Shown piece after piece: positions 1 to 4,221 of a stretch of DNA of 64,000 bases. How positions within the stretch are numbered: position 1 is the first letter of the stretch; every line of letters begins with the position of its first letter. The notes under the pieces are model-generated. The model did not search any database. It was not told the origin of the DNA and saw nothing but the letters and a program-made list of their open reading frames with translations. Made by a program: the position numbers and the translations under genes. The stretch covers positions 1 to 64,000 of the forward strand of contig DASUHB010000068.1 of assembly GCA_036273715.1 (NCBI GenBank). Direction: 5' to 3'. Source of the DNA: Gemmatimonadaceae bacterium. GTDB taxonomy: Bacteria > Gemmatimonadota > Gemmatimonadetes > Gemmatimonadales > Gemmatimonadaceae.

Positions 1-1
1 C

Positions 2-370
2 GCATCGTCGGCTTCGCCTGCGGCGGCGGGCGCTCCCGTCTCATCTACGACGACGGATCCGTTGGTTGAGGCCGAGCGGCAGCAGCTCGCGGAGGCGATC
101 AAGCACCCTGCGTGCGTTTCGATCCGCGGCATGATCGAGAGCGAGATCCCGACCATGAACGCGCTCAAGATCCACAGCCTGCTCACGCACGTCGGCGACA
201 TCATCCACGCGTGGAACGTGTCGCAAGGGAAGAAAGAGCAGGGGCGCAAGGGCATGGCCGCGCGGAAGGCAAACGAAGCGAAGCGCGCCGGCGCCGAGCC
301 CGAGGACGCGGGCGCCAGCGACGACGACCCGTTCAACGACGGGCTCGACGCGATGGGGAATCCGCGCTGA
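2..370 (+). CDS. 5'-truncated hypothetical protein of the integrated element
   Basis: The frame is open from base 2, so the gene starts before the window; the first internal Met/Val-type start is at 62. The visible part begins Ala/Ser/Pro/Thr-rich (low complexity), then has a helical middle (ERQQLAEAIKHP, SLLTHVGDIIHAWN) and a Lys/Arg-rich stretch. It ends in an acidic tail containing DDDPFNDGLD. The tail faintly recalls the acidic C-termini of phage ssDNA-binding or recombination proteins, but the final hydrophobic residues of an SSB tail are absent. The stop overlaps the next start (ATGA at 370), so the two are translationally coupled. I do not recognise a family. Confidence 0.5.
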   Translation, partial: ASSASPAAAGAPVSSTTTDPLVEAERQQLAEAIKHPACVSIRGMIESEIPTMNALKIHSLLTHVGDIIHAWNVSQGKKEQGRKGMAARKANEAKRAGAEPEDAGASDDDPFNDGLDAMGNPR

Positions 371-774
371 TGCCGTACGTAGAGTGGACGCCCGATATGG
401 GCGAGATCAGCGGATTCGGCGGCTCGTACGAAGCCGGGTGCCGCGCGATGGTGAAGGCTGGCGTCGAGTTCTGGGAAGCGCAGGACGCGGCGCATGCCCG
501 TGGTGAGCGCGAGAAGTTCGATCCGCATTACCAGGGATTCGAGGGCGTGTTCGGTCTCTTGACCGACGACAACGCGGACGCGAAAGCGCTCGATCGCGCA
601 ATGATGGACACGCCATTCGTGGACGATCGCACCGGCGAGACCACGACGATCGGGAAGTACGGTGCGACCGGCGCGATGCACCAAGCGGCAGTCGGTCACG
701 TGATGGCGTTCCGGCGGCTCGGCGCGGAGAAGTACTGCGCCACGCTCCGCGAGCGCGAGAAGGCCGAGGCCTAA
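370..774 (+). CDS. hypothetical protein of the integrated element
   Basis: A 134-residue protein starting at the ATG that overlaps the previous stop (ATGA). It starts MPYVEWTPDMGEISGFGG and is rich in Ala, Asp, Glu and Gly, with no signal peptide or membrane segment. It ends in a charged helix (ATLREREKAEA). The stop codon sits inside a copy of the GCCTAAC heptamer (769-775). It lies in a run of short co-directional genes with stop-start overlaps, typical of phage or integrative-element early operons. No function can be assigned. Confidence 0.5.
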   Translation: MPYVEWTPDMGEISGFGGSYEAGCRAMVKAGVEFWEAQDAAHARGEREKFDPHYQGFEGVFGLLTDDNADAKALDRAMMDTPFVDDRTGETTTIGKYGATGAMHQAAVGHVMAFRRLGAEKYCATLREREKAEA

Positions 775-776
775 CG

Positions 777-1001
777 ATGCGCGAGTGCCCCGATTGCGGA
801 CTCGCGTACAGCGGCGACGTGGACGATCACGTGTGCCCCGACGTCGACGACTTGCCGACGAGGATGACGATCTCGCCGAGGACACCGGCGAGAAAGAGTG
901 GAGCGGCCCCGAAGATGGGCCAGCGTACGAAATCGTGGACGACAACACAGAGTGGGACGACGAGGACGATGACGACTAACGCACGGGTGAACGCCGCATG
1001 A
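777..1001 (+). CDS. small putative zinc-ribbon protein, reading frame uncertain
   Basis: It starts two bases after the previous stop. The first 27 residues contain CPDCG and a later CPD (C4, C7, C21), suggesting half of a zinc ribbon or knuckle, followed by an acidic run. In this frame the rest becomes Thr/Arg/Ser-rich and ends at 1001 with an ATGA overlap onto the next gene, which favours the frame. However, the -1 frame from about 850 reads on as DEDDDLAEDTGEKEW and a very acidic tail to a TAA at 977-979, which matches the acidic character of the N-terminus better. Third-position GC is similar in both frames. It may be a frameshifted gene, a programmed -1 shift, or simply this frame. Confidence 0.4.
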   Translation: MRECPDCGLAYSGDVDDHVCPDVDDLPTRMTISPRTPARKSGAAPKMGQRTKSWTTTQSGTTRTMTTNARVNAA

Positions 1002-1654
1002 GCTTCGACTATCGCGTGGTGCCGCTGCCGGCGACGTGGCCCGGGAAGGCGACGCCCGCGTACGCGCGGCGACGCGCGCCGTTCAAGGGCACGCCCGGCA
1101 AGGCGCTCAAGCTGCTCGCGCGCGAGATTGGCATGCTCAACGGGAAGCACGTGCGCATCGCGATCGATGTGCGCGAAGATCAGATCCGCCTCGACGGCCA
1201 GCTCTACGCGAGCGCGCGCGCCCGCACGCCCGGTGTCATCGTGAGCTTCGAGGTCTCGGACGGCACGCTCCAGTTCCCGTGCGACACGTTCCTCTTTTGG
1301 GAGTCCAACGTGGACGCGATCGCGCGCGCGCTCGAAGCGCTGCGCATGGTCGATCGCTACGGCGTGCAGCAGGGCAAGCAGTACACGGGGTTCAAGGCGA
1401 TTCCAGCGACGACAGCGCCGGTTCAGAGCGCCGAGCAAGCAGCGGTGAACATCGCATCGCTTGTCGCGCCCATAGACGAAAACGTGACGGCCACAGTGCG
1501 GCGCATTCTGAGCGATCGCGAGTTCGCCGGCGCGTCTTGGCGCAAAGCGCGCGCGAAGGCGCACCCGGACGCCGGTGGCAACGACGGACTCTTTGTCGCA
1601 GTCCAACGCGACGCACAGATATTGGCTGCGCATCACGGAGTCGCATCGCTATGA
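998..1654 (+). CDS. J-domain-like protein of mobile elements
   Basis: A 218-residue cytoplasmic protein. Residues 1-135 form a domain with TWPGKATPAYARRRAPF, a helix (ALKLLAREIG), a strand-rich part (IAIDVREDQIRLDG, PGVIVSFEV), CDTFLFWESNVDAIARAL and VDRYGVQQGKQYTGF. This layout is familiar from actinobacterial and phage 'J domain-containing' proteins. The last 40 residues look like a J-domain helix pair: WRKARAKAHPDAGGNDGLFVAV, with HPD at 189-191 followed by a helix ending DAQIL. A canonical J-domain recruits Hsp70/DnaK through HPD. It overlaps both neighbours by four bases (ATGA). The partner and role are unknown; by context it belongs to the integrated element. Confidence 0.65.
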   Translation: MSFDYRVVPLPATWPGKATPAYARRRAPFKGTPGKALKLLAREIGMLNGKHVRIAIDVREDQIRLDGQLYASARARTPGVIVSFEVSDGTLQFPCDTFLFWESNVDAIARALEALRMVDRYGVQQGKQYTGFKAIPATTAPVQSAEQAAVNIASLVAPIDENVTATVRRILSDREFAGASWRKARAKAHPDAGGNDGLFVAVQRDAQILAAHHGVASL

Positions 1655-2067
1655 ACGAAAGCCTCATGAAGCTGGGTGAGGCGTTCGCCGAGGAGCGCCT
1701 GCGCATCAGCACGCACAAGCGGCCCGAGGAGATTCGGGACTGCGGCATCTGCGGCCCCGTTCTCGAAAGCACCGACGCGGCCTTCACTGCGGTCGGGCGC
1801 GAGATGGACGAGCTGCGGAAGGACGCTGATCGCTGGCGATACTTCCACCGTCGCTTCTACATGGACCGTCACAGCGACACGATGTTGGACGAGTCGGGAC
1901 GGCTTAGCGTGTCGATTCCTGTGATCGCGCTGCGGGGCTGCGAGCGTTGTTTGTCGCCCAGCGATGTGGACATCGTCGTCGACAATGCCATCGAATCCGA
2001 GAAGGCGGCTGCGCCTAACGCTGAACCGGCCGCATCACACGCAGGACAACCAACAACAGAGGAGTAG
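1651..2067 (+). CDS. hypothetical phage-type protein with Cys pairs
   Basis: A 138-residue protein starting at the ATG overlapping the J-like gene stop. The order is an N-terminal helix, CGICGP (possible metal-binding pair), an amphipathic helix VGREMDELRKDADRWRYFHR, then RRFYMDRHSD, and CERCL near residue 96 (second Cys pair). It ends in a disordered Ala/Glu/Pro tail. The 'DAxRWRxxxR' pattern is common in short proteins of phages and prophages, but its role is not known. The two CxxC pairs could form one zinc site. A GCCTAAC copy lies in the tail at 2013. Confidence 0.5.
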   Translation: MNESLMKLGEAFAEERLRISTHKRPEEIRDCGICGPVLESTDAAFTAVGREMDELRKDADRWRYFHRRFYMDRHSDTMLDESGRLSVSIPVIALRGCERCLSPSDVDIVVDNAIESEKAAAPNAEPAASHAGQPTTEE

Positions 2068-2073
2068 ACTACA

Positions 2074-2319
2074 ATGGCAGCCACGATGCGGGCGAAGTTC
2101 GTGATTCATTCCGTCACCCGAGTCAGTGACACGCAGGAGGACCTGCACTTCGGAGCGGTCACGTCCAAGCCCTTCGATGCGGACGGGATCAGCGAGGACA
2201 ACAAGTACTCGAAGTGGACGCCCAACGCGAGCCTAAGGATGAGCATCACGAACCCAGAACTCATGGGCCAATTCAAGCAGTTCGACAAGTTCTGCGTCGA
2301 TTTCACACCCGCCGAGTAA
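2074..2319 (+). CDS. conserved small phage-type protein
   Basis: An 81-residue protein preceded by a clear ribosome-binding site (GAGGAG at about 2059-2064). It starts MAATMRAKFVIHSVTRV, then has a strand-rich body with NKYSKWTPNASLRMSITNPE and ends FCVDFTPAE. The 'tyTPsGslxLsItNP...GxxyxvDFtPA' pattern is one I associate with small conserved proteins in Caudovirales prophages and island modules; no biochemical role is known to me. There are no membrane segments or Cys clusters. It lies in the early-gene train, followed by a small reading frame and the integrase pair. Confidence 0.55.
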   Translation: MAATMRAKFVIHSVTRVSDTQEDLHFGAVTSKPFDADGISEDNKYSKWTPNASLRMSITNPELMGQFKQFDKFCVDFTPAE

Positions 2320-2330
2320 TAAAGCACCCC

Positions 2331-2471
2331 ATGACAAGGCCGCCGTCGATCACGGTGAGCGGGAGACCGCCCGAACCGGGCACAAAGGCCCGGCGTGCAC
2401 CGCGCGTAGGCACTCGCGAGCGCGGCTCTCTGCCGACGGCCCCGGTGCCGTCGCCGGCGGCGCTGTCATGA
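2331..2471 (+). CDS. possible 46-residue coupled small protein
   Basis: A short frame from an ATG at 2331 whose TGA (2469-2471) overlaps the ATG of the next gene. This is the stop-start arrangement used by every other gene in this operon. The product is Pro/Arg/Ser/Thr-rich (MTRPPSITVSGRPPEPG...) with no recognisable fold and no clear ribosome-binding site. The overlap is the only positive evidence; it may just be untranslated spacer. Confidence 0.3.
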   Translation: MTRPPSITVSGRPPEPGTKARRAPRVGTRERGSLPTAPVPSPAALS

Positions 2472-2809
2472 CACCGACGCTAGAGTCCGTGCTTGCTGAC
2501 TGGCGGGAGCGCGCGAGCGCGGCGCGGCGGGCGCGAGCCACGCCGCAGGCGGATCTCATCGATGAGATTTGCGCGGACGTGGCGCGGGCGGCGGAGGACT
2601 ACCTGCGCTTTCTGTCCGAGCGCGACGCGCAGTTACGCTCAGCCAAGGGCGTCCGGTATCTGCGCTCGCGCTTCCCGGAATGGGAGGCGCAAGGCAACGC
2701 CCGGCGGAACGCCAAGGGCGATCGCGAGTACCGTGCGCTCGTCGTGCCGACGCGCGCGAACATCGTGGCGGCTCGCGAGCGCGGACGCCGTGGGGAGCAT
2801 GCCGCGTGA
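2468..2809 (+). CDS. integrase-linked small protein, possible excisionase-like DNA-binding protein
   Basis: A 113-residue basic protein directly upstream of the integrase and overlapping it by four bases (GTGA). It has an N-terminal helical region with many Arg/Ala, then VRYLRSRFPEWEAQGNARRN, AKGDREY and PTRANIVAARERGR. The middle section looks like a small winged-helix or excisionase-type helix-turn-helix ('RyLRsRFpeWeaqG'). Position just before a tyrosine recombinase is where recombination directionality factors are usually encoded. This assignment is an inference from position, size and charge. No catalytic motif is seen. Confidence 0.45.
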   Translation: MTPTLESVLADWRERASAARRARATPQADLIDEICADVARAAEDYLRFLSERDAQLRSAKGVRYLRSRFPEWEAQGNARRNAKGDREYRALVVPTRANIVAARERGRRGEHAA

Positions 2810-4221
2810 CCAAACCCGTCCGCCGCAAAACGATTCTCCGGTTAGGCCGGCGCGGCGCGCAGGTGCGCGTCCTCCTCGACCGGCGCCTGCAGCTCGTGCG
2901 CTGCCAGTGGAAGGAAAAGGGGAAGCTCCGCACTGAAAGCTGGCCGCTCACGCGAGAGGGCGAGGACGAGGCGTGTGCGTACGCGCACGGCGCCTACGAG
3001 CGGCTCACGCAACCGTCCACGCCAACGTTCCCGCCGATCACGCTCCGTGAGCTCTGGGACGCGTATTGGCTCGCCGTCGCGGACGACGTGCGCGCGCAGA
3101 CCACCGCCGTCGGATATCTGCAGCGCTGGCGGAAGTTCGAGACGTTCGCGGGCCGCAACAGGATCGCCACCGAGGTGACGCCCGCGCTGCTCGATGAGTA
3201 CCGGAAGGCGCTCGCGCAGTTAGGCCACGTGCCGAACCAGGTCCGGCTCCTGGTCGCCGCCGTGCGCCGGATCATCCGCTGGGGCGTCAACGCCGACAAG
3301 CTCCCGATGACCAAGGTGCTCGAGTACCGCGTCAAAAGCCCCAAGGGGAAGCGCGCGCTTCCGATGCACGAATACCGGCGCGAGGAAGCCGCGGCGATCC
3401 TGGCCCAGTTCGACCCGCGCACCTTCCACGGCTGGCGGCCGTACGTGCTCACCGTGCTGTGCGCGATGACGGGCCGTCGCGCGCGTTCGCTCCTGCATCT
3501 CGAGTGGCGGGACGTTGACCTGCGGGCAGGCACGATCCACTGGCGCGCGGAGACCGACAAGATGTGGCAGGATCAGACGCGGCCGCTCCCGGCACCGGCG
3601 ATCGAAGCGTTGTGGGTCGCGTACGGGTGGGCGACGGTGCGGGGATTCGGGAGCCTGTATGTTTTCCCGGCGCTACAGGCGCGGCGCGAAGGGAAGCCGT
3701 GGACCTATCAGGCGGCGTGCGAGGCGCTGCACCAAGCGGAAACGCGGGCTGAGGTCGAGCACATCAAATACCGCGCGTTCCACGGCTTTCGGCGCGGCGT
3801 CACCGGCGACTTGCTGGAAGCGACGGGCGGCAACTACAAGGTGGCGGCGGACTACATCGGGGACCGCGATCTCCGGGTGGTGCGCCAGTCGTACGACAAG
3901 GAGCGCACCGAGCAGCTCGAGGAGTCGGCGCGCATCCTGGAGACCATGCAGGCATCGGTTGAAAGTGGAACGAAAACGAAACGCGACGCCAATGAAGGCG
4001 CCGCGACGGTGGTTAATCCCACAACAGAGGCCGTAACGGAAAGCCAGCGCTCGGGATTGAACCGAGGACCGCTCGATTACGAATCGAGTGCTCTACCACT
4101 GAGCTACGCTGGCGGCATGCCCTGGCGCGGACTCGAACCGCGACGCCTTTCGGCACCACCCCCTCAAGATGGCGTGTCTACCAATTTCACCACCAGGGCA
4201 GCATGCGCGACACTTGCCTAA
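2806..4221 (+). CDS. tyrosine recombinase / integrase of the element
   Basis: A 471-residue protein starting at a GTG that overlaps the previous stop. It has an Arm/SAM-like N-terminal part (70-175, ITLRELWDAYW...) and a catalytic domain (185-370). Active-site candidates are R225 (MTGRRARSLL), K252, H326 and R329 (FHGFRRG) and nucleophile Y363 (RQSYDKE). The usual second His/Trp of the LGH motif is Asp (YIGDRD, D353), which is unusual. From about residue 413 the frame runs antisense through tRNA-Thr and then tRNA-Leu, ending past them. So the C-terminal ~59 residues are encoded by the chromosomal target. This is expected if the element sits at the 3' end of tRNA-Thr, and the C-terminus would change on excision. 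Confidence 0.88.
   Translation: MTKPVRRKTILRLGRRGAQVRVLLDRRLQLVRCQWKEKGKLRTESWPLTREGEDEACAYAHGAYERLTQPSTPTFPPITLRELWDAYWLAVADDVRAQTTAVGYLQRWRKFETFAGRNRIATEVTPALLDEYRKALAQLGHVPNQVRLLVAAVRRIIRWGVNADKLPMTKVLEYRVKSPKGKRALPMHEYRREEAAAILAQFDPRTFHGWRPYVLTVLCAMTGRRARSLLHLEWRDVDLRAGTIHWRAETDKMWQDQTRPLPAPAIEALWVAYGWATVRGFGSLYVFPALQARREGKPWTYQAACEALHQAETRAEVEHIKYRAFHGFRRGVTGDLLEATGGNYKVAADYIGDRDLRVVRQSYDKERTEQLEESARILETMQASVESGTKTKRDANEGAATVVNPTTEAVTESQRSGLNRGPLDYESSALPLSYAGGMPWRGLEPRRLSAPPPQDGVSTNFTTRAACATLA
4042..4113 (-). tRNA. tRNA-Thr (CGT)
   Basis: A complete cloverleaf on the minus strand. The acceptor is GCCAGCG/CGCTGGC with discriminator U, the T-arm carries GGTTCAATCC, and the anticodon loop is TTCGTAA, giving CGU, which reads ACG. 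CCA is not encoded. It is the last tRNA of the cluster, and its 3' end (4042) faces the integrase gene, so it is the likely attachment site of the element to the left. Confidence 0.93.
4042..4113. other. predicted attachment site (attL/attR) in tRNA-Thr
   Basis: The integrase gene abuts the 3' end of tRNA-Thr, the usual target of tyrosine recombinases. The element-proximal part (about 4042-4075, T-arm and acceptor) should be the core identity block that keeps the tRNA intact. No second copy of this tRNA end lies in bases 1-4041, so the other end of the element must lie outside the window to the left. The core boundaries are inferred. Confidence 0.5.
4118..4199 (-). tRNA. tRNA-Leu (GAG)
   Basis: An 82-nt class II tRNA with acceptor GCCCTGG/CCAGGGC and discriminator A. 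The D-arm has TTGGTAGACAC and the anticodon loop TTGAGGG gives GAG (reads CUC/CUU). A long variable arm with a GCCGAAAGGC-type hairpin fits leucine. It is four bases from tRNA-Thr. Confidence 0.93.

Follow-up and report, generated by a model that had tools for sequence, protein, structure and literature searches.

An integrase reading frame extending antisense through its tRNA-Thr attachment site in a Gemmatimonadaceae genome

The integrase gene and the tRNA genes it crosses

The window, that is the whole stretch of 64,000 nucleotides analysed, comes from a draft assembly of a Gemmatimonadaceae bacterium (GCA_036273715.1, here G000) and begins at base 1 of contig C68 (DASUHB010000068.1). Close to this end lies the gene of a tyrosine integrase (int), with small genes upstream and a tRNA cluster downstream (Table 1). 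The GTG start of int overlaps the stop codon of the preceding gene, and in the integrated state the frame encodes 471 amino acids, ending at the TAA at 4219–4221. Residue 413 begins exactly at the 3′ end of tRNA-Thr(CGT), which is encoded on the opposite strand; beyond this point the frame is antisense to tRNA-Thr and then to tRNA-Leu(GAG), the first two members of a seven-tRNA cluster (Thr, Leu, Asp, Glu, Glu, Trp and His). This course of the frame, described in the initial annotation, is borne out, and a check for a shorter true end of the integrase found no in-frame stop codon before 4219. As int and the seven-tRNA operon are convergent, the int message might be stopped or destroyed on meeting the strongly transcribed opposing operon, so that Int would end earlier and long tails would be scarce. 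This is very unlikely: with no in-frame stop before 4219, a full-length message would give the tail.

Table 1. Features of the integrase–tRNA junction (window positions unless a contig is named)
Feature	Position	Strand	Evidence or remark
Right part of prophage, small genes upstream of int	1..2805	+	phrog_9210 at 998–1654; phrog_6978 at 2074–2319
int, tyrosine integrase	2806..4221	+	ORF; PF00589, phrog_1; lambda-Int-like fold; catalytic Y363
Candidate P-arm Int-binding site GGAACGAAAACGAAAC, inside int	3967..3982	+	14/16 direct repeat, shuffle p 0.005
Partner of this site, candidate P′ copy GTAACGAAAACGGAAC	G000:C4:56859-56874		+109 after core end
Terminator-like hairpin with T-rich tail, element-borne	3982..4005	-	consensus scan only; 2 sites found vs 0.8 expected
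attR core, 31 bp	4042..4072	.	exact match to attL G000:C4:56720-56750; divergence from 4073
tRNA-Thr(CGT), target gene, restored by element	4042..4113	-	ARAGORN; Rfam 70.2 bits
Host-only part of int frame, 49 codons antisense to tRNA-Thr and tRNA-Leu	4073..4221	+	also open in G100 empty site
tRNA-Leu(GAG), second gene crossed by int frame, host side	4117..4200	-	tRNA calls

Int is a tyrosine recombinase with its catalytic residues, as indicated by family matches (PF00589, E 1e-10; phrog_1, E 2e-31), by an alignment with 16 relatives, in which H326, R329, R330 and Y363 are invariant and R225 is nearly invariant, and by lambda Int as the top fold match. AlphaFold, run on a 16-sequence alignment, gives a confident lambda-Int-like protein up to about residue 387, and the best PDB structure matches are lambda integrase on core DNA (1z1b, E 2.3e-11); a sequence search of the PDB with Int retrieved no relative at E 0.01. 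Throughout residues 388–471 the pLDDT is <50, and this segment, which includes the tail that is swapped on integration, is predicted to be disordered. The catalytic Y363 sits 50 residues ahead of the attachment core, leaving the catalytic domain intact on the element side.

Upstream of int, positions 1277–1393 and 2467–2805 share synteny and 70–73% DNA identity with a viral contig, G455. The element part of the window contains, besides int, two phrog families of unknown function. The sister contig G455 encodes RecT and a tape-measure protein; used as queries for the prophage body, these two found no match in the G000 assembly. The assembly may lack the body, or the gene content may differ.

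Attachment sites and the empty site

The initial annotation held that an element had integrated into the 3′ end of tRNA-Thr and that its other att end lay outside the window. Both statements hold. A perfect 31-bp copy of the tRNA-Thr 3′ end, AGCCAGCGCTCGGGATTGAACCGAGGACCGC, is found on contig C4 of the same genome, 372 bp ahead of the end of that contig, and the C4 and window sequences diverge immediately past it. An intact tRNA at one end and a displaced tRNA 3′ fragment at the other are the hallmark of tRNA-targeted elements. The core spans the discriminator base, the 3′ strand of the acceptor stem, the T arm, the variable loop and the start of the anticodon stem (3′ strand). The T arm within it (CTCGG-GATTGAA-CCGAG) forms an inverted repeat around a 7-bp loop, and strand exchange would probably take place in this part of the core.

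Comparison with relatives provides the empty site. The left flank on C4, taken as far as the core, was joined to the window sequence that starts with the core. The product matches contig C236 of a same-genus genome, G100, without a break, at 94.7% over 1,807 bp, and on the tRNA side near the junction the two agree at every position from the core outward. The complete tRNA cluster directly follows the same left flank in both G100 and G097. In G099, the match extends over the tRNA side and the final bases of the flank, and there too tRNA-Thr stands beside the same host side. To the left of the unoccupied tRNA-Thr in G100 lie genes of the host instead of the window's phage genes, and therefore the empty site supports integration.

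At 68% G+C, an open frame of this length may in itself arise by chance. Random frames within the window are open over 30 codons 63–66% of the time and over 59 codons 40–49% of the time. Among 13 distinct tRNA-Thr(CGT) genes of the family, two of the three antisense frames usually continue beyond the T arm without a stop, and the G100 empty site keeps the antisense frame open for 59 codons. Because the frame is open in tRNA-Thr genes and in the empty site, the sequence of the tail is set by the tRNA genes and not by the integrase. An unremarkable frame, together with the location of attL and attR on different contigs of a draft assembly, would fit a case in which an unrelated recombinase gene overlaps a tRNA cluster by chance, without any integration here. 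This reading is extremely improbable. The 31-bp duplication beside a contig end and the exact empty site of G100, a genome of the same genus, led to its rejection; the related integrases that occupy this tRNA-Thr in G013, G021, G068, G086 and G090 also argue against it.

Two C-terminal tails and the layout of attP

The attP site and the circular form were deduced by joining two contigs of the draft assembly. In this junction, the attP core lies inside the int reading frame (codons 413–422), which is open on both sides. Residues 1–422 are thus common to the integrated form and the deduced circular form, including residues 413–422 (SQRSGLNRGP), which are encoded in the core and identical in both states. 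Beyond them, attP would read GP|RDSVRTPDDN*, with int reading through the core into the C4 side, as against GP|LDYESS...CATLA* in the integrated state. The deduced circular Int has 432 amino acids, of which the last 10 are RDSVRTPDDN, and the integrated Int has 471, ending in 49 host-encoded residues. The initial annotation had foreseen a host-encoded tail of up to about 59 residues and a different tail in the circle. A host-encoded tail is confirmed, with its length corrected to 49 residues (423–471), as the ten core residues do not change; a different circular tail follows from the joined contigs. The att pair, the empty site and, given that junction, both deduced tails are observed in assembled ends.

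In five att sites, the 150 bp preceding the core were compared with the 170 bp following it for a 16-bp match. The best match was in direct orientation in all five, and four are individually significant. Distances from the core start and after the core end are −75/+109 in G000 (shuffle p 0.005), −76/+123 in G013 (p <0.001), −85/+102 in G219 (p 0.002), −88/+101 in G416 (p 0.002) and −100/+113 in G068 (p 0.067). Because the sequence of the repeat varies from element to element, simple DNA homology does not account for the shared spacing. On the simplest reading, the repeats would be arm-type binding sites flanking the core in the manner of a lambda-type attP. The left copy lies inside int in G000, G013 and G219; therefore, codons from about 387 onward are also attP DNA, which suggests that the end of the int gene is packed into attP.

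The terminator-like hairpin lies 36 bp past the tRNA-Thr 3′ end and its T tract overlaps the candidate P-arm site, so the left repeat of G000 may act as a terminator T tract as well or instead. Placed just past the 3′ end of the tRNA operon, the hairpin could be a case of a prophage supplying a terminator to the operon it has entered.

Read-through in related elements and the role of the tail

The following explanation is probable. A temperate phage with a lambda-type tyrosine integrase has integrated in tRNA-Thr(CGT), with int pointing at the tRNA and its 3′ end overlapping attP DNA, so that the candidate P-arm site and the entire 31-bp core are read as int codons. Integration joins int to host DNA, and the first host stop (471 residues) replaces the deduced phage stop (432 residues). 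Residues 388 onward would be a disordered and tolerated by-product of a gene end packed into attP, and the tail swap would have no regulatory role. Several points count against this by-product reading or qualify it. At least five family members (G000, G013, G219, G224 and G263) have an int frame that reads across the core, a pattern that could also come from selection. G000 and G013 share a short circular tail and a long integrated one as deduced from sequence, the circular tail of G013 having only a few residues (PPGN). A similar swap in phage Mx8 changes activity and specificity, showing that a swap of this sort can matter. Finally, both repeat copies of G000 could be terminator T tracts instead.

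The rival explanation is a switch set by integration, in which gain of the 49-residue host tail or loss of RDSVRTPDDN would lower the activity or stability of Int or shift its site preference. Its precedent is Mx8, where attP lies inside int and integration gives the gene a new 3′ end with changed specificity and activity (PMC6070905, PMC4701971); the C-terminus is cut from 112 residues to 13 and activity drops (PMC4701971), the integrated IntP being the less active form. That the circular and integrated tails of the window Int truly differ in sequence and length also speaks for a switch. The comparative and structural evidence points the other way. The tail is predicted to be disordered, its sequence is fixed by tRNA genes, and the empty site has the same open frame. 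The closest relative with this core, the integrase locus L010 on the viral contig G455, does not conserve the tail: it has 64% identity and the same 31-bp core, and its int stops 18 nt before this core. The change in length is reversed in G219, where the integrated Int has a single residue beyond the core and the circular form runs on for ~50 residues. The G000 and G013 tails, ending in CATLA and TTRAH, respectively, share no C-terminal tag. A switch is thus unlikely, and the suggestion in the initial annotation that integration state could set the activity or stability of the enzyme is unsupported.

The distribution of read-through among relatives also weighs against such a switch, since it comes and goes on the domain tree, where the states need four changes. 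The frame stops before the same tRNA-Thr in G086 (L012), G090 (L019) and G021 (L028), reads through tRNA-Thr in G013 (L018) and G263 (L068), and reads into tRNA-Asn in G219 (L064) and G224 (L066). Two well-supported sister pairs, the window integrase with L010 and L012 with L018, each differ in state. The left att ends of the G224 and G263 elements were sought and not found, and one scan of genome contigs and a phage collection found no relatives.

Two general rules were also considered. That the integrated tail is always the longer was rejected on the opposite length change in G219, and a conserved degradation tag was dropped, given the two unlike tail ends. It is quite unlikely that the family uses antisense tRNA as a state-dependent C-terminal tag, with the prophage Int471 less active or less stable than the circular Int432. 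If this were true, the tag would be a built-in lock on excision, and the lock would evolve fast, since a tail can come from any frame that crosses the 3′ end of a tRNA.

By anatomy, the window case is of the kind of the Mx8 and Mx9 integrases IntP and IntX, with attP in the int coding sequence, a new 3′ end on integration and the catalytic domain on the element side. The differences are that here 10 residues become 49, that the swapped part is predicted to be disordered and that it is not kept in the closest relative; from sequences and models, the comparative evidence leans against a functional consequence like that in Mx8. Other known systems share parts of this arrangement. The tRNA-targeted islands and prophages of the Islander catalogue, which makes an explicit exception for integrase frames crossing attP (PMC4383910), likewise have a restored tRNA, a displaced 3′ fragment and a tyrosine integrase beside the tRNA, with no basic difference. 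Mycobacteriophages BPs and Brujita carry attP in the repressor gene, and their switch works by removing a degradation tag (PMC4557955). There too attP is inside a coding frame and a C-terminus depends on integration, but the gene concerned is a repressor with a tag, whereas here it is an integrase in which no tag was recognised; a repressor gene is absent at either att side examined, and the core falls in int. Archaeal suicidal (SSV-type) integrases also have the recombination site within int, but integration splits and inactivates their gene (PMC8371274), whereas the catalytic domain of the window Int is untouched. Peptides read antisense from tRNA genes are a known type of spurious entry in protein databases, covered by AntiFam (PMC9710616, PMC5897793), and residues from 413 on are just such an antisense translation of tRNA genes; here, however, a genuine gene leads into the antisense frame, so that real translation of the tail is possible.

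Among bacteria other than myxobacteria, the locus is a clean and readily checked example of an integrase whose frame spans attP, and it explains why antisense-tRNA peptides form the C-terminus of many integrases in databases. A reason for the overlap between attP and the end of the gene is suggested by the shared repeat layout, in which arm-type sites would sit in the last int codons. The empty site, both deduced tails and the relatives that do or do not read through form a natural set that could test whether tail swaps ever matter.

Some att sites of the family have features of their own. The viral contig with L010 (IMGVR_UViG_3300005458_000074) terminates exactly at the end of the 31-bp core, which resembles the assembler break expected if the att sites had multiple contexts in the sample. 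In G086 (L076/L083), a tRNA-Thr 3′ fragment at C5:212492 lies ~45 kb from the tRNA-Thr at C5:257338, which has a related integrase (L012) beside it; this candidate att pair has no matching core, and the fragment and tRNA-Thr differ at many positions of the acceptor and T arm. The tRNA has possibly been replaced, or the element may be old or composite. In G068 (L082/L089), two tRNA-Thr core copies 2.5 kb apart (C21:15976 and 18499) flank a related integrase frame broken by TAG, probably the remnant of a larger element. In G416 (L086), a core at C16:2326-2347 stands beside a related integrase on a 4.1-kb contig, with no tRNA after it; int stops ~100 bp before this core, which looks like attP of a circular form or a displaced end. 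The G219 element (L097/L096, C91:78007-85253) occupies tRNA-Asn and is compact, at 7.3 kb; a single contig includes both att ends, and three copies of the repeat CGAAACCGTCACG surround the core.
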